Below, piece after piece: positions 1 through 21,468 of a DNA stretch of 25,094 nt. How positions within the stretch are numbered: position 1 is the stretch's first letter; each line of letters starts with the position of its first letter. The notes beneath the pieces are model-generated. The model was not told the origin of the DNA. It saw only the letters and a program-made list of their open reading frames with translations, and did no database searches. The stretch lies in IMG/VR virus record IMGVR_UViG_3300036671_000027, positions 1 to 25,094 of that record, one strand, 5' to 3'. The position numbers and the translations under genes were made by a program. This DNA is from a virus.

Positions 1-3000
1 GGAATATTTTCTATCGCTGTATTTATGCTTGTTATTTTTGCAAGTGCCCCTGGATCTTTTAATACAATTTCTATATTAATTTCTTCATTGTCTAGCTGTG
101 TTAATAATTCTAATGTAGAGTATTGTGCTTGAAACTCAGCATCTGAAAGTCCAGACATATTTATCATTATTGTTTTTGCAAGAGTCTGATCTTCAAAACC
201 ACCCACAATAGACTGAAGTCTATTTAAATCTTCTAGTCCTTGAGTTACTAAATATGTTTTAAATGTTTTACTTAGACCCTTTTTGTCATCTCCAAAAAGA
301 TTAAGAAGTCCTGTTGCTTGCCTTGATCCTAATTGTCCTGAAGAAACAACCGCTTCAATGTTAGCTCTTAAGGATGTTTCTCCCATAGCCCTAGACTTAT
401 CTAAAAATACATTAGCATCTGTTTCTTGCTTAGTTCCTTTAAATCGAGTTTTTATTGCCTCAGAACTTGCAAGGAAGAATTGATTTTTTTCACCAGAAGT
501 AGCTGTCTTAAGTTGTTTTTCAATAACATTTAACACTTGATCATTCATGTTTCTAAGTTTTTTGGTTGAATTAAATCTTTTAGTTTCTAGTCTATCAATT
601 TCTGTTTGAATTAAAGCCTGTTTAGCAAGATCTTTTGTTGCTGCTTTATCTGCCTTTAACTTATCAATACTCTTACTGGTGCTTACATCAATTGCATCAA
701 TTTGTGCTTGAATACTTTCAAATGATTGACTTGCCAATGCCCCAGCAAATGCATTAAATTTACCCAAAGATGCTTCAATATCTTTTACTCGTTTTTCAGC
801 AGCTCTTAGTGTTCCTATTATTCCATCAAATTGTTCATCCGTTATTGTATTAAAAGCAAAAGCTGTCATTGCTAAAGATGTTTTTTCTTTAGCTACTTTT
901 AAAATATCTTCTGCAACTGACAACTCTTTTTCTAAATTAGGCATAACATTGATAAACTGACCTACTGTTTCTTCTGCAATTTTTATTCTAATTTCAAATG
1001 GCTCTGTAGCTAAATCTTTTCCATCTACTGTTAATAATTTTTGCAATTGTCCTTGAAGTTTTATTCCAATTACTTTATCTTGAAATTGAATACCAATCTG
1101 ATCTGCAATGCTTGCAGCCTGTGCTGCATCAATTACTCCATCAGATACATAGCTTGCTAGTTTTAATGAAAACTCTTTCATAGCAATATCTGGCATTGCT
1201 TTAAATCTTGTTTCAAATGCTGCTATATCTGCTTTTCCTACTTCACTTTGTAGGAATGCACTACCAAATTTAATACCCTTACGTTCTACTGAGAAGTCTC
1301 CTGTTGCATTTTCTCTTCTACGTGCAGCAACTTGAGATGCCCCTACCTTGCCACTAATTTCTCCAACTTGTTGCATTTTTGTTGTAGTTGCATATAGTTG
1401 ATCAACCAGTCTTGCTTCTGCTTTTATAGCATCATCTTGTTTCTTTTTAAATAAATAGATACCCACAGCAACTGCAGCAAGTGCAACGGGTATGCCAATC
1501 AAAGGATTCATAAGTAATGGAAATAAAGCTAAAACACCTTGTAAACCAAAAACAAATGGCATAATCTTTTGTGCCATTTCTCCAACTTTTCCTCCAGCAA
1601 AGGATGCTGCAATTGTTAGTCCACTAATTGCTCCAACCCCTATACTAGCTTTTGTTCCAAATGCCCTAATGCTTTCTTTTGAACTTTTAGTTGCTTTTGT
1701 ATTTTCATTAATACCTTCAGTAGATGTTTTTACAACACTTGATTGTTTTTGTATTCCCTGAATTAATTTATTTTCAATAACAAGTCTTCTTCTTGCTGTT
1801 GATAAACTTACACCTTCTTGTCCTGCTCTTTGTCTAATTTGATCTGCTTGACTTAGTGGGGCATCAGATCTACCAGGTAGTCTAAGTGGTCTTTGAACAA
1901 CTTGTTTACCCTTTGGATCTACCATATATCTGTCTGCTATATTTGGAACTATTGGTTTAACTGCTATTGGTGCTTTCTTTTTTGGAATTGCAGATGTCTT
2001 ACCCTTGTCATCTTCAAGCATTTCATCTTTTGTAACTAATACAGAAGAGTGCATTTTATGAATGCCACGCCAGTCTGTTAATTTACCTTTTTCAAGTCTT
2101 TTAATCATATCTTCATAGGCAGCTTTTTCACTTGGATTTGTTAATCCAAACTCTTTAACAGTCTTTTTTAATAATGGAAGTGTTCTATCTATTTCAGCAA
2201 TTATTGATTTGTGATATTGATCTGCAGACATACCCTTTGGAATATCTACAGTTGCTTTAGCAAAATCTTTACTTAATCCACGTCCGCCTGGTACGCCAAG
2301 AAGATTGATCTCTGCTTGACCAAGCAAAGATTTCATTCCAGGAGAAAAGTCTCTTCTGCCAGATGCCTTATCAAATACACCTGATGCTCCTGGATCTGTT
2401 AATATATTTCCAGAAAGGTTTCCTCGCTTAAGATCTTTATCTCCACGTAACAACGATGCAGTTAGTTGTCTAAAATATTGATCTTTTGTAAACTTACCAG
2501 TCATATTAGACTCAGCAAATCTTGGATCAAATGAAGATTCTAAAACAATAATTTTTCTATTTTTATTATTTGGATCTGCCATAGTTTTCATAACTTGTGC
2601 AGGTGTTTCTAGACCATGTACATCTCTTGCAATCTTGTTTGCACGTAATTCTGCTAGTGCTGATTTTTCATCAATCATTGGCTTAACAAATTTTCTTACG
2701 CCATTTTTTTCATACTCTCCACCAATACCAGGAACTGGAAAACTATAACCAACAGATGGTTTTATTTGTCTTCCAAAGTCTGTAGGCTTAACTTTAGCCA
2801 TGCTGCTAGATCTTACATCTGCGTCAATTCTTCTTAATTCTTCTAAAGATCTTGCACTTAACTTCTTTTTAATTTGTTTAACTTCTTGTGGACTTATAAG
2901 TTTTTTGCTAGATGATGGATCTAGTGGTACCCCTGCTTTAGCTGCTTCAGCTTTAAGCATTTCTTTTTTAACTTTACTGCTATTTGGGAATCTTTCTGCA

Positions 3001-6000
3001 AGTGTTTTAAATACACCCTTTTTATAAAAATCAGCACCAAGTCTATGTTTCATTGTTTCATCTACAGCAATTGCTTGAACATCTTTTGGATTTTTTCTTA
3101 AATCGTATTGTGCAACTTTTTGTAATGTTTCAGCTGCTGCAATATTTTTAGGATGTTTTCCATCTATAAGGTTTTGAAGTTCTTTTCTATCTATGCTAAG
3201 TTCTTTAAGCAACTTTGGATCATTAAGAATTTTTTGTCCAAAACCTTTTTCAACTCTATTCATGTAATTATTTACTGCACCTGGCTCAGAAGATATGTTT
3301 TTAGGATCCCAAATTTTTACCCCTTTAGAATCTACTGATTTTTCTAAGTGTGAGGCTTGAATTGAAGAAAGATTTTTTAGTTGTGCTGCTGAGACAGTAA
3401 TTCCTTCTTTTTTAAGTCTATCTATAACAGCATTAATTTCTGAAGTAAATAATCCTTGTTCTTTAATTTTCTTGTTTAAACCACCAAAGGGACCACTACG
3501 TTGCTTGCCTACGTTTGAGCCTAAAAGATGAAATATATTTTTATCTAAAGTTGAAGCCGTAAGACTTTGTTTTGTTGAATACTTTGACAAACCTTCTGAT
3601 ATGGTTTTATAATCAAAAACTCTAACTGCATTACTTGGGTTGTCTCCAACACGAACAAAATCTCCTGTTGGATGCTTATAGACATATTGTTTTCCACCCT
3701 TAGATGCATTATAATATGGACTATCTTGTTTAACTTCTTGAAAATTATCTAAATACTTTTGTGTATTTTTAGCTCCCGCTGCAGTTTTAGCATTGTATTG
3801 TTGTTCTTCAAATGTAACTTTTTTATCAGATAAATTTTTTTCATAAGTAGATGCAGAACCTGATTGGGCTTTTGCTGCTTGAGTAACTTTATTTGTTCCG
3901 TCATTAAAACCTTGAAGTTTTCCACTAACCATTGCATCAATAATTGGCTGAAATCTAGGGTTTTGTGCAATATCTCTTGGAATAACTGCTTCTCCAGGGG
4001 TAAGCATAGATGCAACAGTATCTTTATTTCCGCTTCCTGGAACATATGTAGATCCATCTGCAAATTTTTTTGGTGCAGTGCCACCTTTTCCTGGCCTCAT
4101 CATTCCTGGATTTACTCTAGCAAAGTTTGCTGCTGCAACAGTTGCATCAATATATGCTTGACGCAACAATCTAACTGCTGAAGTTTCTGCTGTAAATGAT
4201 TGTGTTAATCTTGTGTGTGCTTGATTTAAAGATGCTGCAACTGTAGCTGCCTCCATCTGTTCTGAATTCATGTAGTTTGTTTGTTCTGCAAGAATCTTTG
4301 AATTGCCACCTAGTTTTAAGAATCCAACACGAAGGGCTAAAAATAATTTAATAATATTTGCTGCGCCATTTGCAACCAAACCAAATGCCATTAATAATGT
4401 TGGACCAATAATACCAACAAGTGTAGATGCTATAACTATAAACCTTTTAGTCCCATCTCCAAGACCATTAAATTTTTCAAGTAATCCAGCAATAGATTTT
4501 ACTATTGGTGTAACTGCTTCTAGAAAAGATTTTCCTATTGGTGCAATTGTTAATTTTAAGCTTTCTATTGCTTCTTTAAAGTTTGTACCAACAGCATTTT
4601 CTACTGTTTTTAATTCTCTCTCAGATAAGATAGCAAGTTCTTCTATTTCCATCTTTGATAATTCTAGTACACGATTAGCTTGCGTACCCTCTTTTGTTAT
4701 GTTTTGAAATAGTGTAGATAGACGTGCAAACTGAAACTTTCCAAACATCTGCTCAATGGCTCTTGATCTATCAAGTGGCGCTAAAGTATCTAGTGCTTGA
4801 GCAAACTCAATTACTGTATCTTTAATATTTCCTTGATTTGAATCAACAATATTTTTAACATTAACGCCAAACCCTGCAAGCATTTCTGATGCTTTTTTGC
4901 TTGGATTAATTAAAGATGCAAGTCCAGACTTTAATGCGTTTGCTCCTTCTGATGCATTAATACCACCTTCTTTCATGGCAGTTAAAAAGAAGGCAAGGTC
5001 TTTTACATCTCCACCAAGTTGTTTAACAACTGGTCCAGCTTTTGGAATAGCAATAGTTAAATCTTCAATAGATACAACAGTTTGGTTTTCTACTGAGTTA
5101 AGAAAATCAATATCTTTAGCTAAATCAGTTGCCGCTACGCCAAATGCATTTGTTAAAGATATGGTTGTTAAAAGTGCTTGCTCTTGTTCTACACTACCCA
5201 GAACTGCAAGTCGTGTTGCTTGTGCAACTTGTGCAGTAAGTTCTGATCCAGTCTTACCCATTGCTGCTGCTGATGCAGCCATTTCCATTGTCTTGCTTAC
5301 TGATACGCCATACTTTGTAAATTCTTTTGCAAGTAATTGAACTTCTTGCAATGCTTTATTTGTTTGATCACTTGTTGTAAACATGTCTCCATAAACACGC
5401 TTAAATTTAACAGCCTGTTGTTCAAGATCCATAAATACTTTTGCTGCTGCACCTCCAATATACAGTAGGGGTACACTAAAGCCAACCATAAGTTGACGAC
5501 CAGCCCATTGAGTATTTTTACCAAAGTTTAAAAGACTTGTTGATCCTTGACGAACTAACTGATTAAATATTGCTTGTTTTTGAGCTGCTAATGCTGTTTT
5601 TGTTGAATAGTCTTGCATGTTCAGTGTGTTAGGCGTAATAGACATAGCCCTCATTGCACCAGATGCATCACGACCCATCTTAATGTATTGAGTCTGCATC
5701 TTTTTAACACGCTCTTCAGCAACCTTGCCGATAGTGTCAAATTCAGATTTAAAAAGTTTACCAAAACCTTTAGATGCTCCTCCCGCATAGCGGAAGTATT
5801 CTCTCATTGAGAATTTGTTTTTTTCTAATGAATCTGTAAATGACTCAGTAGATGTTCTAATAACACCCATTTGTGCATGAAACTTACCTGTAGCATTAAC
5901 AGCATTAAGTAGGTTAGTTTGTAGATTTTTTTGTGCCATTGCTGCTGTAGCACTGGATTTAGATATTTGTGAATGAAAAGTTGCAATCTGGCGTTGTAGA

Positions 6001-6068
6001 CTTTTAAGTTCCGCTAATGCCGCAGAGGTATCAATATGTACCGCAATATTGGCATTAACGTCACTCAT
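1..6068 (-). CDS. Tail tape measure protein, TP901-1-like, partial (C-terminus outside window)
   Basis: The frame opens at ATG 6068 and stays open to the left edge, giving at least 2022 residues. An SD-like AAGGTG (6076-6081) lies 7 bases before the start. Tape measure proteins set tail length, fill the tube and are ejected at infection. Residues 184-231 (GRQLMVGFSVPLLYIGG, then a DLEQQAVKFKRVYGDM segment) match the conserved core of the TP901-1 tape measure family. Hydrophobic stretches lie at about 543-590 and 1476-1540, the second ending in a Lys-rich cluster. Residues 669-696 carry FADGSTYVPG followed by MLTPGEAVI, a motif often seen in tape measure proteins. Residues 1105-1340 contain kinase-like motifs (see separate entry). 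The remainder is Lys/Ala/Gln-rich and probably helical. It follows two chaperone genes, the normal position. Identity is firm; the role of the middle third is not known. Confidence 0.93.
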   Translation of the reverse strand, partial: MSDVNANIAVHIDTSAALAELKSLQRQIATFHSQISKSSATAAMAQKNLQTNLLNAVNATGKFHAQMGVIRTSTESFTDSLEKNKFSMREYFRYAGGASKGFGKLFKSEFDTIGKVAEERVKKMQTQYIKMGRDASGAMRAMSITPNTLNMQDYSTKTALAAQKQAIFNQLVRQGSTSLLNFGKNTQWAGRQLMVGFSVPLLYIGGAAAKVFMDLEQQAVKFKRVYGDMFTTSDQTNKALQEVQLLAKEFTKYGVSVSKTMEMAASAAAMGKTGSELTAQVAQATRLAVLGSVEQEQALLTTISLTNAFGVAATDLAKDIDFLNSVENQTVVSIEDLTIAIPKAGPVVKQLGGDVKDLAFFLTAMKEGGINASEGANALKSGLASLINPSKKASEMLAGFGVNVKNIVDSNQGNIKDTVIEFAQALDTLAPLDRSRAIEQMFGKFQFARLSTLFQNITKEGTQANRVLELSKMEIEELAILSERELKTVENAVGTNFKEAIESLKLTIAPIGKSFLEAVTPIVKSIAGLLEKFNGLGDGTKRFIVIASTLVGIIGPTLLMAFGLVANGAANIIKLFLALRVGFLKLGGNSKILAEQTNYMNSEQMEAATVAASLNQAHTRLTQSFTAETSAVRLLRQAYIDATVAAANFARVNPGMMRPGKGGTAPKKFADGSTYVPGSGNKDTVASMLTPGEAVIPRDIAQNPRFQPIIDAMVSGKLQGFNDGTNKVTQAAKAQSGSASTYEKNLSDKKVTFEEQQYNAKTAAGAKNTQKYLDNFQEVKQDSPYYNASKGGKQYVYKHPTGDFVRVGDNPSNAVRVFDYKTISEGLSKYSTKQSLTASTLDKNIFHLLGSNVGKQRSGPFGGLNKKIKEQGLFTSEINAVIDRLKKEGITVSAAQLKNLSSIQASHLEKSVDSKGVKIWDPKNISSEPGAVNNYMNRVEKGFGQKILNDPKLLKELSIDRKELQNLIDGKHPKNIAAAETLQKVAQYDLRKNPKDVQAIAVDETMKHRLGADFYKKGVFKTLAERFPNSSKVKKEMLKAEAAKAGVPLDPSSSKKLISPQEVKQIKKKLSARSLEELRRIDADVRSSSMAKVKPTDFGRQIKPSVGYSFPVPGIGGEYEKNGVRKFVKPMIDEKSALAELRANKIARDVHGLETPAQVMKTMADPNNKNRKIIVLESSFDPRFAESNMTGKFTKDQYFRQLTASLLRGDKDLKRGNLSGNILTDPGASGVFDKASGRRDFSPGMKSLLGQAEINLLGVPGGRGLSKDFAKATVDIPKGMSADQYHKSIIAEIDRTLPLLKKTVKEFGLTNPSEKAAYEDMIKRLEKGKLTDWRGIHKMHSSVLVTKDEMLEDDKGKTSAIPKKKAPIAVKPIVPNIADRYMVDPKGKQVVQRPLRLPGRSDAPLSQADQIRQRAGQEGVSLSTARRRLVIENKLIQGIQKQSSVVKTSTEGINENTKATKSSKESIRAFGTKASIGVGAISGLTIAASFAGGKVGEMAQKIMPFVFGLQGVLALFPLLMNPLIGIPVALAAVAVGIYLFKKKQDDAIKAEARLVDQLYATTTKMQQVGEISGKVGASQVAARRRENATGDFSVERKGIKFGSAFLQSEVGKADIAAFETRFKAMPDIAMKEFSLKLASYVSDGVIDAAQAASIADQIGIQFQDKVIGIKLQGQLQKLLTVDGKDLATEPFEIRIKIAEETVGQFINVMPNLEKELSVAEDILKVAKEKTSLAMTAFAFNTITDEQFDGIIGTLRAAEKRVKDIEASLGKFNAFAGALASQSFESIQAQIDAIDVSTSKSIDKLKADKAATKDLAKQALIQTEIDRLETKRFNSTKKLRNMNDQVLNVIEKQLKTATSGEKNQFFLASSEAIKTRFKGTKQETDANVFLDKSRAMGETSLRANIEAVVSSGQLGSRQATGLLNLFGDDKKGLSKTFKTYLVTQGLEDLNRLQSIVGGFEDQTLAKTIMINMSGLSDAEFQAQYSTLELLTQLDNEEINIEIVLKDPGALAKITSINTAIENI
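2050..2770 (-). other. Kinase-like domain inside the tape measure protein (PI3/4-kinase / HipA-type motifs)
   Basis: This is a segment of the tape measure protein, about residues 1100-1340. In order it shows VRKFVKPM with Lys1129, Glu1140 in a following helix-like stretch (ALAELRANKIARDVHG), a probable hinge with IVLESSF, then LLRGDKDLKRGNL with Asp1212 and Asn1217 (D-x4-N), and finally SGVFDKASG with Asp1233. Atypical kinases of the PI3/4-kinase, HipA and CtkA group use an ATP-binding Lys, a pairing Glu, a catalytic D-x4-N loop and a metal-binding Asp in this order. The residues are read directly from the sequence; the fold assignment is inference. It could be an inactive structural homologue or a chance resemblance. 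Confidence 0.45.
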
Positions 6069-6087: not shown

Positions 6088-6420
6088 TTAATTATTTGCA
6101 ATAACTGTGTTTAACAAAGCATTTGCATCTTGTAATTTAATTCCAGAAGCAGCTTCAACAATCTTATAGACTGTAGGAAGATCTAAAACATCTTCTAGCT
6201 TTTCTAAATCTTCTGAAAGTTCTGGCCTATATTGCTTCATAGCAATCTGTACACACTCAATAAGGATAGTTGTAGACTTATCGTTATCTTCTGCCACCTC
6301 TGCAATTGCTTCAAACTTCTTTAAAAATGGACGCAAAAGTGAGATTTTTAGTGGTCTCACTTTAACTGTTGACCCATCCATAAGTGTTAGTTCTGTTCCC
6401 TCATGTACCGCTGTTACCAT
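6088..6420 (-). CDS. Tail assembly chaperone, short form (110 aa)
   Basis: The ATG at 6420 has a perfect AGGAGG (6426-6431) five bases upstream, and an extended -10 lies further up. The protein is small and acidic and ends 19 bases before the tape measure start. Its sequence is alignable over nearly its full length with the first 100 residues of the gene before it: DGSTVKVRPLKISLLRPF against DGTELEISPLKIKYLRQF, and DLPTVYKIVEAASGIKL against NMPTIYKIVELAAGIKI. In many tailed phages a short chaperone (G) and a C-terminally extended one (GT) are made from one locus by programmed frameshifting and load tube subunits onto the tape measure. Here the short form appears to be its own gene. Position and paralogy support the call. 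Confidence 0.72.
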   Translation of the reverse strand: MVTAVHEGTELTLMDGSTVKVRPLKISLLRPFLKKFEAIAEVAEDNDKSTTILIECVQIAMKQYRPELSEDLEKLEDVLDLPTVYKIVEAASGIKLQDANALLNTVIANN

Positions 6421-6464: not shown

Positions 6465-7178
6465 CTAGTTTTTCATTAAGGAAGGATCTCTTGCATCTTC
6501 ATAATCAAGACCCATCCCAATACCAAATCCTGCTTTTTTAGCATTTTGTCCTTGTAGGGCTAACACATCATTACTATCATTTGTTGCTCCCCTACTAAAT
6601 ACCCTGGCTTTCATGTCTTCCCATTCTTTTTGGCCTTTATTACTGCCATTATTTGCTTCTAAATCTACCCCTTGAATTGCTGCTAAAAACTTTTTTTCTT
6701 GATAGTCTAATTCTCTTTTACTTTCTAGTGTTGCCATTAACTCTGGCATAGATAGATTAGTTTCTAATTCTTCATAGTCTTTCCAGATGCCCAGTAAAAA
6801 TACTTCTGCTTCTAATGCAGCTAAATCTAGGTCATCCCAAGTACCGCCACTTTTTTCTGCTTGTTCTTTGATAGGCTCTTCTGATTTTTTATTAATTTTA
6901 ATACCAGCAGCAAGTTCAACTATTTTATATATTGTTGGCATGTTAATATGCTCTTCAACATCTTCTGAACTTGTTGAAATTTTTGGATAATATTGTTTCA
7001 TGCATACTTGTGCACATCTTATGAGTACGTCAATTGCATCATCATCATTTTTTGCATTTGCCATCTCTGCAAAAGCTGCCATGAATTGACGCAAATATTT
7101 AATTTTAAGTGGTGATATTTCTAATTCTGTTCCATCAATTAAAAAAACATTACCCTTACTATATATTTCTGTAGCCAT
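6465..7178 (-). CDS. Tail assembly chaperone, long form (237 aa)
   Basis: The N-terminal 100 residues are paralogous to the 110-residue gene that follows. The C-terminal part adds a Trp- and Glu-rich segment: GTWDDLDLAALEAEVFLLG, then WKDYEELETNLSMPELMA and DYQEKKFLAAIQGVDL. That extension looks like the T part of tail assembly chaperones from phages of Gram-positive bacteria. In the usual system this extended protein binds tube subunits while the N-terminal part coats the tape measure. The start ATG at 7178 lacks a convincing SD. An extended -10 (7186-7194) ends only seven bases before it, so the message may be leaderless. The tail tube terminator lies directly upstream, so this gene starts a new transcript ahead of the short form and the tape measure. 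Confidence 0.72.
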   Translation of the reverse strand: MATEIYSKGNVFLIDGTELEISPLKIKYLRQFMAAFAEMANAKNDDDAIDVLIRCAQVCMKQYYPKISTSSEDVEEHINMPTIYKIVELAAGIKINKKSEEPIKEQAEKSGGTWDDLDLAALEAEVFLLGIWKDYEELETNLSMPELMATLESKRELDYQEKKFLAAIQGVDLEANNGSNKGQKEWEDMKARVFSRGATNDSNDVLALQGQNAKKAGFGIGMGLDYEDARDPSLMKN

Positions 7179-15666: not shown

Positions 15667-18600
15667 TTAAACGGCTGTACCCAATCTAATGGTCCAGGTT
15701 GTGTCATTATAGACCTTAACCTTGTCTGAATCAAAGATCATGCCTTCATTATCATCAATAATAATCTTATTAGTTCCAATATATGTTTTATATACGTCTG
15801 AAGGCAGAACTCCATATAAATCTGATGCAGAAATAACAAGAACACCTTCCCAATTAAAACTATTTAACCAAAATTCCCAGTCAAAACTTGTTACGCCGTC
15901 TGTTTGAACTTTAAGCCAAGGTCTAAGAAGATTACTTTGAACCTGCTGTAAATTGTTTGCCTGATAATATGCAACATTATTAAATACAAGTGGTCCAGTT
16001 AGATTAATTGCTCCAATATATAAATCAAAGCTTAATGCATTGCTAAAGGCAAGCCCCATAACTGCCCATTCTTTAACTGTTAATACTGGCTCTCTTACTA
16101 TTGAACCGTTTAAGAAATAAGATATTCCATTATAAAGTGTATTAGTTAATGAGCTGTTTGCATAAATTCTTGCTCTAGTACCCTCTGGATTATCAGCAAC
16201 CATGTAGAACTTAATTGTGTCACCTTTATACTCTATCTCAAAAATTTCAGTAGGTGTTATTGGGAATACATCTTGATCGTATCTCATCCAAACTTGAGCA
16301 GCGCTAATACGATAGTTGTCTGCAACGTTTTGATTAATTGGTATTGCTATGCCACGACTTACCAGCGGATCAAAACTTCCACGAATTTCTACTCCTGATG
16401 TTCTATTAAGATAAAGATATGGAGTACTTGCTTTGTAAATACTAAAAGGATTCTTTGCTTTGTAATCATAATATAATCCAGATCTAGTATATGGGAACAT
16501 GTCTATTCCAAATCTAGTGCCGACTGGATTAAATGAGTTATCATTAAAGGCTTGTGATGCAATGTCTAATCTTCTTAACTGAATAGGCTTTCTTAAGATG
16601 CCACGAATATTAAAGTCAAGGTGATAGACAAGTGCAAGATCGTTAAAGTCTACAGTTTGTGATGGATAGATAAGGGTGTTGTCTACTACTTCAAACTTTG
16701 TTAATAGCCAGTCTGGATAATCATTCATATCAATGATTGCACCCTCTTTTGCTGGAAGAACTGTTGTAAATGATCCTTGTGGTGCGTTTGCTCCTGTTGA
16801 TATATATTGAAAAGTTATATAGCTTCTAATAGATGCATCTGTTGTATCATATTCATAATATTTTTCTGCTCTTTCAGCCATATCTTGATAGTTGTTCCAG
16901 CCAGTAAATAAATTATTATCTAATTGCAAGTATGTTCTTTGAACTGGGTGAGAGTAGTATTCTTTTAATTGATCATATGTCCAAGAACTTGTTGTTTCAA
17001 ATTCCGCTAATTTTGTAGGAGAAGGGTATCCAAGATTAAACTGCAAAAAGTCTAAATCATAGTATTGATTTCCGACATCGTTAGTTACAAACTGAGCAAA
17101 GTATGAAAGCGGCATATAGTCTTCCCAATATCCAGAAACACCAATATCTAAGAAATAAGATCCATATGCTTGCAGTGGTAAGATTGTATAGCTTGCTGTA
17201 TGTTGAAGAAGCTCAATTGCATTTGCTGACTCTGCTGATCCAGTTGCTAAATAACTATCTATGATTGCTATACCATTGTCTTCAAAATTACTTGTTATTT
17301 CAAAAGCATTATAAGATGTGGAAAGTCCTATAGAATATATTTTTCCAGTAAACTGGTAGTTAATATCTTCTTCTCCACCAACATACATTTTTAATCCATT
17401 TTGATTGCCAAAAAATGTAGCAACATTGCCACCAAAATTAGTTACAAGAGATTGAATCTCAATACCTGCTGCAAACTTTTCATCAGATACAATAATATCT
17501 GTTGTATATATTTCTTCTTCTACTCCATTAAATAATAGATAATAATGAATCTCATCTAGGTCTTTTCTAATACTAAAAGAATTACCTGTTAGGGGACTAT
17601 AAATTTTAAATAATGTTTCTTCCGTTGATAAATTATTTGATGAAAATACACCGTAGATAGTGTGTATTGGATCACTTAAAACACTAAAGTTTGAAAAGTT
17701 AAAATAGCATCTTTCTGAGTTCCAGGAGTTATCTGGTCTAAATGTTATAAAGTTACTGTCTGTTGGATCTTGTATATCTTTGTTGTCTGTGTACAATTGT
17801 GTCAGTGTCTTTGATCCAAGAATTATGTCTGGCAAAGAATACTGTGGGGTTGTAAGAGATGTTGTTGTTGTTCTTAGATTATCAAATGTTCCTTGATCCC
17901 ACTTGGCAAAACTAGGATAGTTATAGTTTGATGTGTAATCAGCAAAAGAGTAATCAATAAATGCAGCACTACCGCCATAAGCAGAGTTAATTCCTTCTGG
18001 AGAAAGAACTCCTTGACCATAAACCCATCTACGCTTTGCAACGTTAATCGCAACAGAGTATGGATAAATAGCAACACAATCAATTTCAACTGGAGTTACA
18101 TCTGTGTATGAGTAAAAACCAAGCCAGTCTTGACTATCTCCAAACTCATCAAGTATGTCAGGCAATACAAGGGTATCTGTATTGATTGGAAGATTGATAA
18201 CTTCTTCTCCATTTAATAACACTGTTGCATTGTTTCTAATTATTCTAACATGAATAAGCATTGGTCTAAACCACTCGCCAACAAAGTGTGAAGAAAATTC
18301 TTGACCTATAACAAGTGTAAGAAATCCTGACTCAACATATAAACCATCATTAGATGAAATTGGACCAAATACTTTTTTTGGCTCATATGCATTTGAGTTA
18401 ATTCTTGTCCAAAATTCAACAGTGTATTCTTTATACTGTCCAGATTTATTTAAAAATCCTTTTCCAGGAACAATGAGAGATGGTTTGTTGTTAGAGTTTG
18501 GTGTAGTTCTTGTAATATTGCTTGCACCATAAACCATAGGCACTCCGCTATTTCTTGCAACCAAAGCATTATTGTCTACTAAATAATATCCAACTTCACC

Positions 18601-19284
18601 AGCAATGCCGTATGGATCTGCTTGCACGGCTTGAGTTGCAGACAAAGCAATGTTTGCTGGGAAAGACACTGGAGTTACTCCAAGTGAAGTAGTGTTAGAT
18701 TCTTCTGACCACTGTCCTGAGCTTATGCCATTAATATAAAAATCATAATCTCCTGCACTACCACCAGATGCATAAGTAAATTTTATTACTAATTGAAAGT
18801 CTGTATTCTCATCAACTATATCAAATGTATCTGATACAAAACTCCATGCTTGAAAAACGGAAGTTGTAAAAGATTTTAATTCTTCAATAGGTAAAGATGT
18901 AGTTGTGTCAATATATCTAAATCCTATTGATACTGATTGTAGATATGCACTATTAGAATAAAAATATGTACCGTTGCAAAAAGATCCAAGAGTTGTATTT
19001 AAATCTTGAAAGTTAACTAAATCAGGACTTATCAAACTAATAGTTGCAGTTGAGCCAGATGGTACATTTCCTTGTACAAGGGTCGTATAGCTATCTGGAA
19101 ATGGTTCTCCAGTTACTCCAACACCAGATGTTACAGATGCTCCAGTTACTGTCCAACTAGAAGTTGCATTTCTTTGCGACTCAGAAATAAGGGTAATATA
19201 ATCTGCTTGATCATCAAGTGCCCACAATATAGTAGGATGTTCTGAATATACTTTTTCAGCATACAGGTTTGATGGATTAGACAT
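15667..19284 (-). CDS. Large minor tail protein with LamG/concanavalin-like domains (1205 aa)
   Basis: The ATG at 19284 has AAGGAG four bases upstream and an extended -10 seventeen bases upstream. The N-terminus (NLYAEKVYSEHPTILWALDD) matches the opening of large minor tail proteins of actinophages. At least three stretches look like LamG/concanavalin-type jelly rolls: about 275-420 (YTVEFWTRINSN, then IHVRIIRNNATVLLNGEEVI), about 490-660 (IYGVFSSNNLSTEETLFKIY to FTGKIYSIGLSTSY), and about 1030-1130 (FEIEYKGDTIKFYMVADN to WAVMGLAFSNALSFDLYIGA). Such domains usually bind carbohydrate, so a role in adhesion to the host surface or baseplate structure is likely. No enzymatic motif was seen. It follows the reductase and precedes the head genes. 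Confidence 0.82.
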   Translation of the reverse strand: MSNPSNLYAEKVYSEHPTILWALDDQADYITLISESQRNATSSWTVTGASVTSGVGVTGEPFPDSYTTLVQGNVPSGSTATISLISPDLVNFQDLNTTLGSFCNGTYFYSNSAYLQSVSIGFRYIDTTTSLPIEELKSFTTSVFQAWSFVSDTFDIVDENTDFQLVIKFTYASGGSAGDYDFYINGISSGQWSEESNTTSLGVTPVSFPANIALSATQAVQADPYGIAGEVGYYLVDNNALVARNSGVPMVYGASNITRTTPNSNNKPSLIVPGKGFLNKSGQYKEYTVEFWTRINSNAYEPKKVFGPISSNDGLYVESGFLTLVIGQEFSSHFVGEWFRPMLIHVRIIRNNATVLLNGEEVINLPINTDTLVLPDILDEFGDSQDWLGFYSYTDVTPVEIDCVAIYPYSVAINVAKRRWVYGQGVLSPEGINSAYGGSAAFIDYSFADYTSNYNYPSFAKWDQGTFDNLRTTTTSLTTPQYSLPDIILGSKTLTQLYTDNKDIQDPTDSNFITFRPDNSWNSERCYFNFSNFSVLSDPIHTIYGVFSSNNLSTEETLFKIYSPLTGNSFSIRKDLDEIHYYLLFNGVEEEIYTTDIIVSDEKFAAGIEIQSLVTNFGGNVATFFGNQNGLKMYVGGEEDINYQFTGKIYSIGLSTSYNAFEITSNFEDNGIAIIDSYLATGSAESANAIELLQHTASYTILPLQAYGSYFLDIGVSGYWEDYMPLSYFAQFVTNDVGNQYYDLDFLQFNLGYPSPTKLAEFETTSSWTYDQLKEYYSHPVQRTYLQLDNNLFTGWNNYQDMAERAEKYYEYDTTDASIRSYITFQYISTGANAPQGSFTTVLPAKEGAIIDMNDYPDWLLTKFEVVDNTLIYPSQTVDFNDLALVYHLDFNIRGILRKPIQLRRLDIASQAFNDNSFNPVGTRFGIDMFPYTRSGLYYDYKAKNPFSIYKASTPYLYLNRTSGVEIRGSFDPLVSRGIAIPINQNVADNYRISAAQVWMRYDQDVFPITPTEIFEIEYKGDTIKFYMVADNPEGTRARIYANSSLTNTLYNGISYFLNGSIVREPVLTVKEWAVMGLAFSNALSFDLYIGAINLTGPLVFNNVAYYQANNLQQVQSNLLRPWLKVQTDGVTSFDWEFWLNSFNWEGVLVISASDLYGVLPSDVYKTYIGTNKIIIDDNEGMIFDSDKVKVYNDTTWTIRLGTAV

Positions 19285-19446: not shown

Positions 19447-21468
19447 TTAAATAAGACAGTTATCATTGTTGCAATATTTTTCTCCAAGGGCATCAAGATT
19501 TTCTATACCGTCATAAATAGCAGACCAGTCAATAGTTGCTATTTTGCCAATATAAGAGTTATATTCTTCTTCTGTAATTTCTTGATAAGGTTGTTGAGGG
19601 TATACTTTGTTACCCATTGGTAAAAAAGATACTGCTTTTAGTTGTCCCTCATACATATGTAGTGCTGGGGCAACAAACTTTGTTTCTTCTTCTTTATCAA
19701 AAGAAAGCGTTACAGAAACACCATTATCTGACCAGTACTTTTGAGCAGTTGCCGCTAAACCAATTTTTTCAAATAGGCTAACTTCTTTTTCTGATCTTTT
19801 ATGTCCAGATTTAATTGGAAAATAAACTACAGATGTTTCTTCTGAATAAATGTCATCTTCAATTTTATACCCAGCAGCTTTAAATAAATGTATCATGTTA
19901 TCTTGTTTTCCAAAACGAATAGCACGAAGATAAAAAGATCCTCCTGGACCCCAGTGAACTCCAGGAGTTGCACCAGAAAGAAGTGATACAGATCCAGAAG
20001 GCTTAACGGTTGTTACACGAATTGATTCACGAACACAAAGCCATTCTGAATACTGATGATCATAGTGACGAATTTTTTTGTATCCCTCATCCATCCATTC
20101 ACGAGTTATTGGCAAACCATTTTGATCAGCAAAGGATGCAATACCTGTAAGTGATGTGCCAATGCGACGATTGCGTTGCATAATTCCATTAGTTTGTGGC
20201 CAATGAGTTGGCATTAATGTAACAGTTTTTCCATAAAGGTATGCAAACTTTAATGTCTTAAGAAAATCTTCTTTAGAATCGTGACGATTTAAATGTACCT
20301 CTACAAGAGTACACATTTCTCCACTTTCAAGATCCATCTCTGCACATGGGTTCATTCCCATCACACGATAGTCTTTTCCATCTGCTGGATCTGCAAGTCT
20401 TCCATAATTACGAGCAACATCAAGCCAAATAAAACCTGGTTCTCCATTGTTAGCAATTAAATCAACATAGTCTTCATACTTAGTTCCAACTTTTGCTGAA
20501 ATTGAATTATTAGACATGTAAGACCAACCAGGATTTTTTGGATCATAAGAATTTCTTTCTGGAAATACATCAGCATTTTTTAAATTAATAAAATCTTTAT
20601 CTTCTGGTGAACCAAGAGCAAGTGTTGCCGAACGTCTTACATTGCCAGCAACAACACAGGTTCCAATTAAATTAATAATATCTACTATTGCACGAGAATC
20701 AAGGGTTTCTCCTGATCTTCCACCAACAACTCTGCGAAGACGGTCATGCAGCTCTATTAATGGTTGTGGTCCTGATGCGGTTCCACCAAAGCCTTTAATA
20801 GGAGCACCCAATGGGCGAATCTCTGAATAGTTGAACTCTTGAATGTTTTGATTAGGACGCAAGAATGAGTTTAATAATATACGAAGTGACTCTACCCAGC
20901 CTTCACGGGTATCGGGAATAACATAAGTATTTATAGGCTCTGTAGGGGCATAGATGGGCATTTCTTTGTCTTGACCAACTGTGTCAAACCCTACTCCAAT
21001 ACCCAACATAAGGGCATCCATGACCCATGAGAACAGGGCTCCAGGGTCGTTGCGGTCAATGTCTCTTGTTGAAATCATTGCACAGTTTTGAAGAGATGCT
21101 GAGTTTTTCTTTTCCATAGTCATAGCAGTTCCAAATGCCCACATACCACGGCCTGGGGGAGTCCATTTTAAATTAAACATTCTTTCATATGCTTCTTGAG
21201 CAGATTTTTGTGCCTTGTTATCATTCCAGGGAAGCCTATTATCTTTAGCATGGTTTTTTTGAACTGAGTACATACCTTCAATTACACGCTTACAAACCTC
21301 ATACCATCTTTCTTTTGTACCGTCATCTTTGACACGAGAGTACGTACGAATAAATGTAATTTCACCTAACGAGTTTGATCCAGCGTCGGTAAAGCCAAAT
21401 GGAGCTGGAGCATTCTTGTATTTTGTAATAAAATCATCTAGTAAACGAAAAGAAAAGATATCTGACAT
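19447..21468 (-). CDS. nrdJ: Adenosylcobalamin-dependent ribonucleotide reductase, class II monomeric type (673 aa)
   Basis: The enzyme reduces ribonucleotides to deoxyribonucleotides using a B12-derived radical, supplying DNA precursors without oxygen or an iron subunit. All key residues of the Lactobacillus-type reductase are visible: Cys129 in SLQNCAMIS and Cys386 as the disulfide pair; NPCAE with Asn373, thiyl-radical Cys375 and Glu377; and the C-terminal CNNDNC pair Cys666/Cys671. PPGRGMW (104-110) is also typical. The spacing of 11 between Cys375 and Cys386 equals that of Cys408/Cys419 in the L. leichmannii enzyme. The length is slightly below the usual 700-740. GAGAGG lies 12 bases before the ATG. 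It sits unusually between fibre and minor tail genes and has its own promoter-like site. Confidence 0.95.
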   Translation of the reverse strand: MSDIFSFRLLDDFITKYKNAPAPFGFTDAGSNSLGEITFIRTYSRVKDDGTKERWYEVCKRVIEGMYSVQKNHAKDNRLPWNDNKAQKSAQEAYERMFNLKWTPPGRGMWAFGTAMTMEKKNSASLQNCAMISTRDIDRNDPGALFSWVMDALMLGIGVGFDTVGQDKEMPIYAPTEPINTYVIPDTREGWVESLRILLNSFLRPNQNIQEFNYSEIRPLGAPIKGFGGTASGPQPLIELHDRLRRVVGGRSGETLDSRAIVDIINLIGTCVVAGNVRRSATLALGSPEDKDFINLKNADVFPERNSYDPKNPGWSYMSNNSISAKVGTKYEDYVDLIANNGEPGFIWLDVARNYGRLADPADGKDYRVMGMNPCAEMDLESGEMCTLVEVHLNRHDSKEDFLKTLKFAYLYGKTVTLMPTHWPQTNGIMQRNRRIGTSLTGIASFADQNGLPITREWMDEGYKKIRHYDHQYSEWLCVRESIRVTTVKPSGSVSLLSGATPGVHWGPGGSFYLRAIRFGKQDNMIHLFKAAGYKIEDDIYSEETSVVYFPIKSGHKRSEKEVSLFEKIGLAATAQKYWSDNGVSVTLSFDKEEETKFVAPALHMYEGQLKAVSFLPMGNKVYPQQPYQEITEEEYNSYIGKIATIDWSAIYDGIENLDALGEKYCNNDNCLI

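Follow-up and report, generated by a model that had tools for sequence, protein, structure and literature searches.

Tape measure proteins determine how long the phage tail becomes and lead the DNA into the cell. Tape measure proteins with cell-wall-cutting domains are already known; that of mycobacteriophage TM4 is reported to bear a peptidoglycan hydrolase motif (PMC1796659). The tape measure protein (TMP) described here resembles the TM4 protein in that a catalytic-type domain lies inside the tape measure, but the TM4 domain cuts peptidoglycan whereas ours has a predicted kinase fold. A kinase-fold domain in this position appears to be new: the literature that we searched describes no kinase in a tape measure, which is weak evidence of absence as subscription papers lay largely outside the search. 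A co-mention of a kinase and a tape measure for cyanophage MinS1 refers to two separate genes.

The described proteins to which the domain compares best in structure are CotH (PF08757), the CtkA/HipA Ser-Thr kinases (PF07804), and the type II PI 4-kinases and PI3/PI4 kinases (PF00454). CotH works on structural proteins: it phosphorylates spore coat proteins, catalytic mutants alter the coat, and the substitutions D228Q and D251A each inactivate it (PMC7821199). HipA is part of a toxin-antitoxin pair, whereas the domain studied here is embedded in a tape measure. Other phage proteins also have kinase-like folds, as illustrated by the structural matches of our model in BFVD, which include A0A6J5NE85 of an uncultured Caudovirales phage (E = 3.0e-5), R4T6E8 of halovirus HHTV-1 (E = 3.4e-4) and A0A6J5MJB0, which is annotated as a PI3/4-kinase. 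Gene 13 of HHTV-1 (contig L147, 9436-12738; its length fits R4T6E8) looks kinase-like by eye (GNRDIHGGN...VDNG), is not significantly similar in sequence to the domain of the TMP and differs in location, as it lies in the head region, two genes upstream of a Mu gpF-like gene and away from the tape measure gene. The same gene, annotated as hypothetical, also holds HEMAH and HEMQH motifs that by eye resemble those of metallopeptidases.

The tape measure gene and its relatives

The window, a stretch of 25,094 nucleotides of viral DNA (IMG/VR record IMGVR_UViG_3300036671_000027), opens with a long reading frame whose features are collected in Table 1. Its N-terminal homology and its position among the tail genes identify the product as a TMP: the N-terminus matches tape-measure and minor-tail models of PHROG and Pfam, with PF10145 at residues 247-443 (E = 2.3e-23, Pfam search) and the tape measure family phrog_10030 at E = 4.9e-102, and the PHROG tape-measure families together cover residues ~8-780. 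By portal and TMP the nearest cultured phages are Streptomyces phages of the Stanwilliamsviridae such as Mildred21 and Tomas, to whose TMPs the N-terminal core is 28.7-29.4% identical up to residue 693 and whose gene order from capsid to TMP is that of the window. The host of the virus is therefore probably an actinobacterium, as far as these nearest cultured relatives are a guide. The kinase-fold domain is absent from the Stanwilliamsviridae Streptomyces phages such as Mildred21 and Tomas.

Table 1. Features of the tape measure gene in the window (residues are those of the TMP)
Feature	Position	Strand	Remarks
TMP reading frame, 2022 aa	3..6068	-	still open at the window edge, C-terminus outside
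Conserved N-terminal core, residues 1-693	3990..6068	-	common to Stanwilliamsviridae Streptomyces phages; contains PF10145
TPGEAVI motif, residues 690-696	3981..4001	-	end of the N-terminal core, start of the variable insert zone
Upstream region, residues 836-1045	2934..3563	-	BLASTP of the window TMP against L249, L254 and L310; profile search
Exchangeable cassette, about residues 1030-1400	1869..2981	-	window against L248, L243 against L310, L247 against L249; edges approximate
Predicted atypical kinase-fold domain, about residues 1092-1345	2034..2795	-	AlphaFold2 model and VIA-align matches
Lys1129, beta3-lysine equivalent (VKP)	2682..2684	-	invariant, 100/100
Glu1140, alphaC-glutamate equivalent	2649..2651	-	99/100
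Asp1210, R-G-D-K-D-L motif	2439..2441	-	invariant, 100/100
Asp1212, catalytic-loop Asp equivalent	2433..2435	-	invariant, 100/100
Asn1217, catalytic-loop Asn equivalent	2418..2420	-	invariant, 100/100
Asp1225, candidate substitute metal ligand	2394..2396	-	invariant, 100/100
Asp1233, DFG-Asp position	2370..2372	-	Asp in only 35/100, unconstrained

The upstream region (residues 836-1045) appears as another module, which is found in TMPs both with and without the kinase cassette. In many relatives a further copy of a TPGEAVIP-type motif is present, either behind the kinase domain or close to the C-terminus of the TMP, and such motifs stand on both sides of the kinase domain in 59 of 122 complete TMPs.

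Predicted fold and sequence-level searches

A first-pass annotation of the window had pointed to five residues of the TMP, Lys1129, Glu1140, Asp1212, Asn1217 and Asp1233, which occur in kinase order and spacing, and had proposed that the tape measure carries an inserted atypical kinase fold. All five are exactly where they were claimed to be. On its own, however, such a motif does not clearly exceed chance, as this TMP contains the loose K-E-DxxxxN-D pattern 29 times as compared to 14 +/- 9 times in shuffled copies (P = 0.06), and what weight it has comes from family conservation and the predicted fold rather than from the motif alone.

The proposed fold itself is borne out by structure prediction and fold search. 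The AlphaFold2 model of residues 1070-1360, built from 31 sequences, has a pLDDT of 89.6 and a pTM of 0.88 and is two-lobed like a kinase; in it Lys1129 lies in strand 55-62 and Glu1140 in the next helix 65-80 (model numbering), Asp1212 is in the loop that follows a later helix, and residue 1233 comes directly after a one-residue bridge, Phe1232, as the DFG Asp does after its strand. The top Foldseek match is CtkA (probability 1.00), and the matches listed are kinases or complexes containing kinases, with E-values that are modest (1.2e-3 at best). In VIA-align the best-matching solved structure is CotH (5jd9; Z of 12.0 over 215 residues, rmsd 4.0), followed by CtkA (10.5), PI4KII-beta and the MavQ lipid kinase (both 9.9), HipA (9.0), PIK3C3/VPS34 (8.6) and Fam20C (8.4), and all of the 50 matches listed are kinases by title or known identity except for one LepB fragment. 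By comparison, a Z of 7-8 is the stated typical level for models without a clear match. Sequence identity to the TMP domain is 8-10% for CotH and about 10% for the PI3/PI4 kinases. A second model, of a distant member of the family which has Lys at position 1233 (L104), was computed from an alignment that left the window sequence out; it reaches a pLDDT of 85.3 and gives a similar ranking, with Z values of 11.8 for CotH, 10.8 for CtkA, 10.4 for PI4KII and 9.3 for HipA. Residues ~1092-1345 are thus predicted with high confidence to form a two-lobed atypical kinase fold of the CotH/CtkA/PI4KII/HipA type. A shared fold is by itself no proof of function.

At the level of sequence the kinase families named along with the motif could not be recovered. 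Neither Pfam nor PHROG nor PDB sequence profiles recognise the domain; when the domain and 11 members of its family were scanned with Pfam and PHROG, the only matches were sub-threshold and due to chance, with no Pfam match of the domain to CotH, HipA or the PI3/PI4 kinases, and the CotH model has no match anywhere in the window. A PDB search with the family profile gave weak matches to protein kinase C (best E 0.03, profile positions 53-129), which we judge to be due to chance because the short chains, of the size of a C2 domain, and the aligned stretch suggest the C2 rather than the kinase domain. A low-stringency alignment between the family's profile and 11 HipA proteins does put the key residues in register, pairing K1129 with K181, E1140 with E203, D1212 with D309, N1217 with N314 and the region of 1233 with that of D332. 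In hhalign, shuffles scored as high in 2 of 150 cases for alignment A2 and in 65 of 150 for alignment A4, and as the score for the larger alignment is not above that of the column-shuffled controls we make no claim of homology to HipA at the level of sequence. Since no profile match is significant, the domain as modelled is placed in the protein kinase-like (PKL) fold superfamily but assigned to none of its named families.

Conservation, distribution and exchange of the domain

Conservation was assessed in 100 non-redundant members of the family (<90% identity), which are 36-83% identical to the window domain. The invariant columns are K1129, D1210, D1212, L1213, N1217, D1225, G1230, V1231 and A1235, and thus the equivalents of the beta3 Lys and of the catalytic-loop Asp and Asn as well as, with a single exception, the alphaC Glu are present throughout. 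Four of the five motif residues are thus conserved. The exception is Asp1233, the supposed catalytic or metal-binding residue: the column holds D in 35 members, G in 15, S in 14, Q in 9, K in 8, A in 6, E in 5, and N and T in 4 each, and with rank 239 of 267 it is among the most variable of the domain. In a tree computed with columns 1233-1234 left out, Asp and non-Asp states interchange at least 12 times, 10 of these changes being forced by starred branches. The site thus drifts, and to judge from these alignments Asp1233, though present in the window, is not among the conserved residues of the active site. A metal-binding Asp of the DFG type is needed in a canonical active kinase, whereas pseudokinases of this fold can be without it; across the 100 members it is not consistently kept at this position. 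We take D251 of CotH, the second catalytic position of that protein, to be the equivalent of position 1233, in which case the TMP family differs from CotH in not having kept it.

Relatives of residues 1050-1370, confirmed by tblastn, are found on more than 320 viral contigs (successive searches gave overlapping sets of 23, 71, 269 and 323). Among 225 domain-bearing reading frames examined, 216 also include the N-terminal part of the TMP in frame. Of the nine that do not, eight are truncated by the end of the contig, while the start of the remaining one, L113, lies within its contig; in none of the 225 was the domain shown to lie outside a TMP. The start of the domain is in most cases near residue 700, 900-1000 or 1200-1300, with single cases near 1500 and 1800. 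Two scans of the genomes of 84,980 species gave no relative of the domain, nor did tblastn with three members as queries against 50,697 phage records; the matches of one member to phage records lie in its C-terminal part, including the TPGE-type linker motif, and were rejected.

The domain is not a constant part of these tape measures. A scan with the TMP N-terminal core yielded 80 contigs, which are 68-86% identical to the window, and where the 3' end of the reading frame is present (n = 58) the domain is found in 18 TMPs and missing from 40. In BLASTP, residues 1-1066 and 1356-1702 of the window TMP align to residues 1-1016 and 1019-1356 of the domain-less L248, and conserved flanks across the same gap are seen between L243 and L310 and between L247 and L249; in global alignments the flanks of the domain-less TMPs are joined by a short linker that shows little similarity. 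TMPs are mostly 2400-2550 aa long without the domain and mostly 2750-3300 aa with it. These alignments show that the domain is a cassette, both optional and exchangeable, within the variable zone that follows the conserved N-terminal core.

Possible roles of the domain

We suggest that the domain is a nucleotide-binding, non-canonical atypical kinase which, as an optional cassette of the TMP, is delivered with the tape measure and modifies a host target, a reading to which we assign a probability of roughly 0.55. ATP would be bound through Lys1129, paired with Glu1140, and through the catalytic loop with Asp1212 and Asn1217. As Asp is not retained at the DFG position (1233), we regard Asp1210 and Asp1225, both of them invariant, as candidates that probably supply or complete the metal site. 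Being part of the tape measure, the domain would travel in the tail, and at DNA ejection it may reach the cell envelope or the cytoplasm and there modify its host target, with phosphoryl transfer as the most likely reaction. That the domain is delivered together with the tape measure at DNA ejection is what we infer by analogy with enzymatic tape measure domains like that of TM4. A more far-reaching proposal, tentative and in our estimate short of even odds, is that a widespread family of actinophage-like viruses injects a kinase-fold enzyme with a metal site rewired to Asp1210/Asp1225, which would modify a host protein or lipid at DNA entry, prior to the expression of any phage gene, and whose cassette would be swapped like an accessory effector. 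A kinase-fold domain in this place would turn tape measures into carriers of signalling or effector enzymes whose action precedes gene expression.

But does the domain still catalyse phosphoryl transfer? That the DFG Asp is lost while the catalytic loop next to it stays invariant raises the question of whether we are looking at a new kinase chemistry or at a pseudokinase. The lack of constraint on position 1233 argues against canonical Mg-ATP chemistry and makes a pseudokinase possible, that is, a domain which has kept the fold and perhaps nucleotide binding, has lost phosphoryl transfer and serves as a structural plug, a folding unit or a binding module in the tail or tail tip. The free drift of the DFG position and the fact that close relatives do without the domain are in line with such a role. 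However, decayed pseudokinases commonly lose the catalytic-loop Asp and Asn and the Lys and Glu as well, whereas here these residues, together with D1210 and D1225, stay invariant or nearly so at 36-83% identity to the window, and we therefore regard loss of activity as unlikely, though well worth keeping in mind. Close relatives with and without the cassette offer a natural comparison for function.

Rather improbable, in our view, is that the kinase acts during assembly, modifying tail or capsid proteins of the phage itself in the producing cell in the manner of CotH, which acts on the spore coat and is the closest solved structure for both models; some close relatives share the TMP core but have no such domain, which speaks against this. 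Finally, the kinase-like order of the five residues might be a coincidence within an ordinary helical tape measure, in which the loose pattern is frequent by chance. This is hardly credible, as the two high-confidence predictions, for the window and for L104, both match kinases and four of the five residues rank among the most conserved columns, and at the level of prediction the accidental origin of the motif is refuted.

Elsewhere in the window, two adjoining reading frames upstream of the TMP gene (6088-6420 and 6465-7178) both match phrog_10504, and the pair looks like a duplicated gene of the tail assembly chaperone type. A ribonucleotide reductase gene (phrog_367, 19447-21468) is situated among virion structural genes. 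Between it and the structural genes lies a reading frame of 1205 aa (15667-19284) without a PHROG match.
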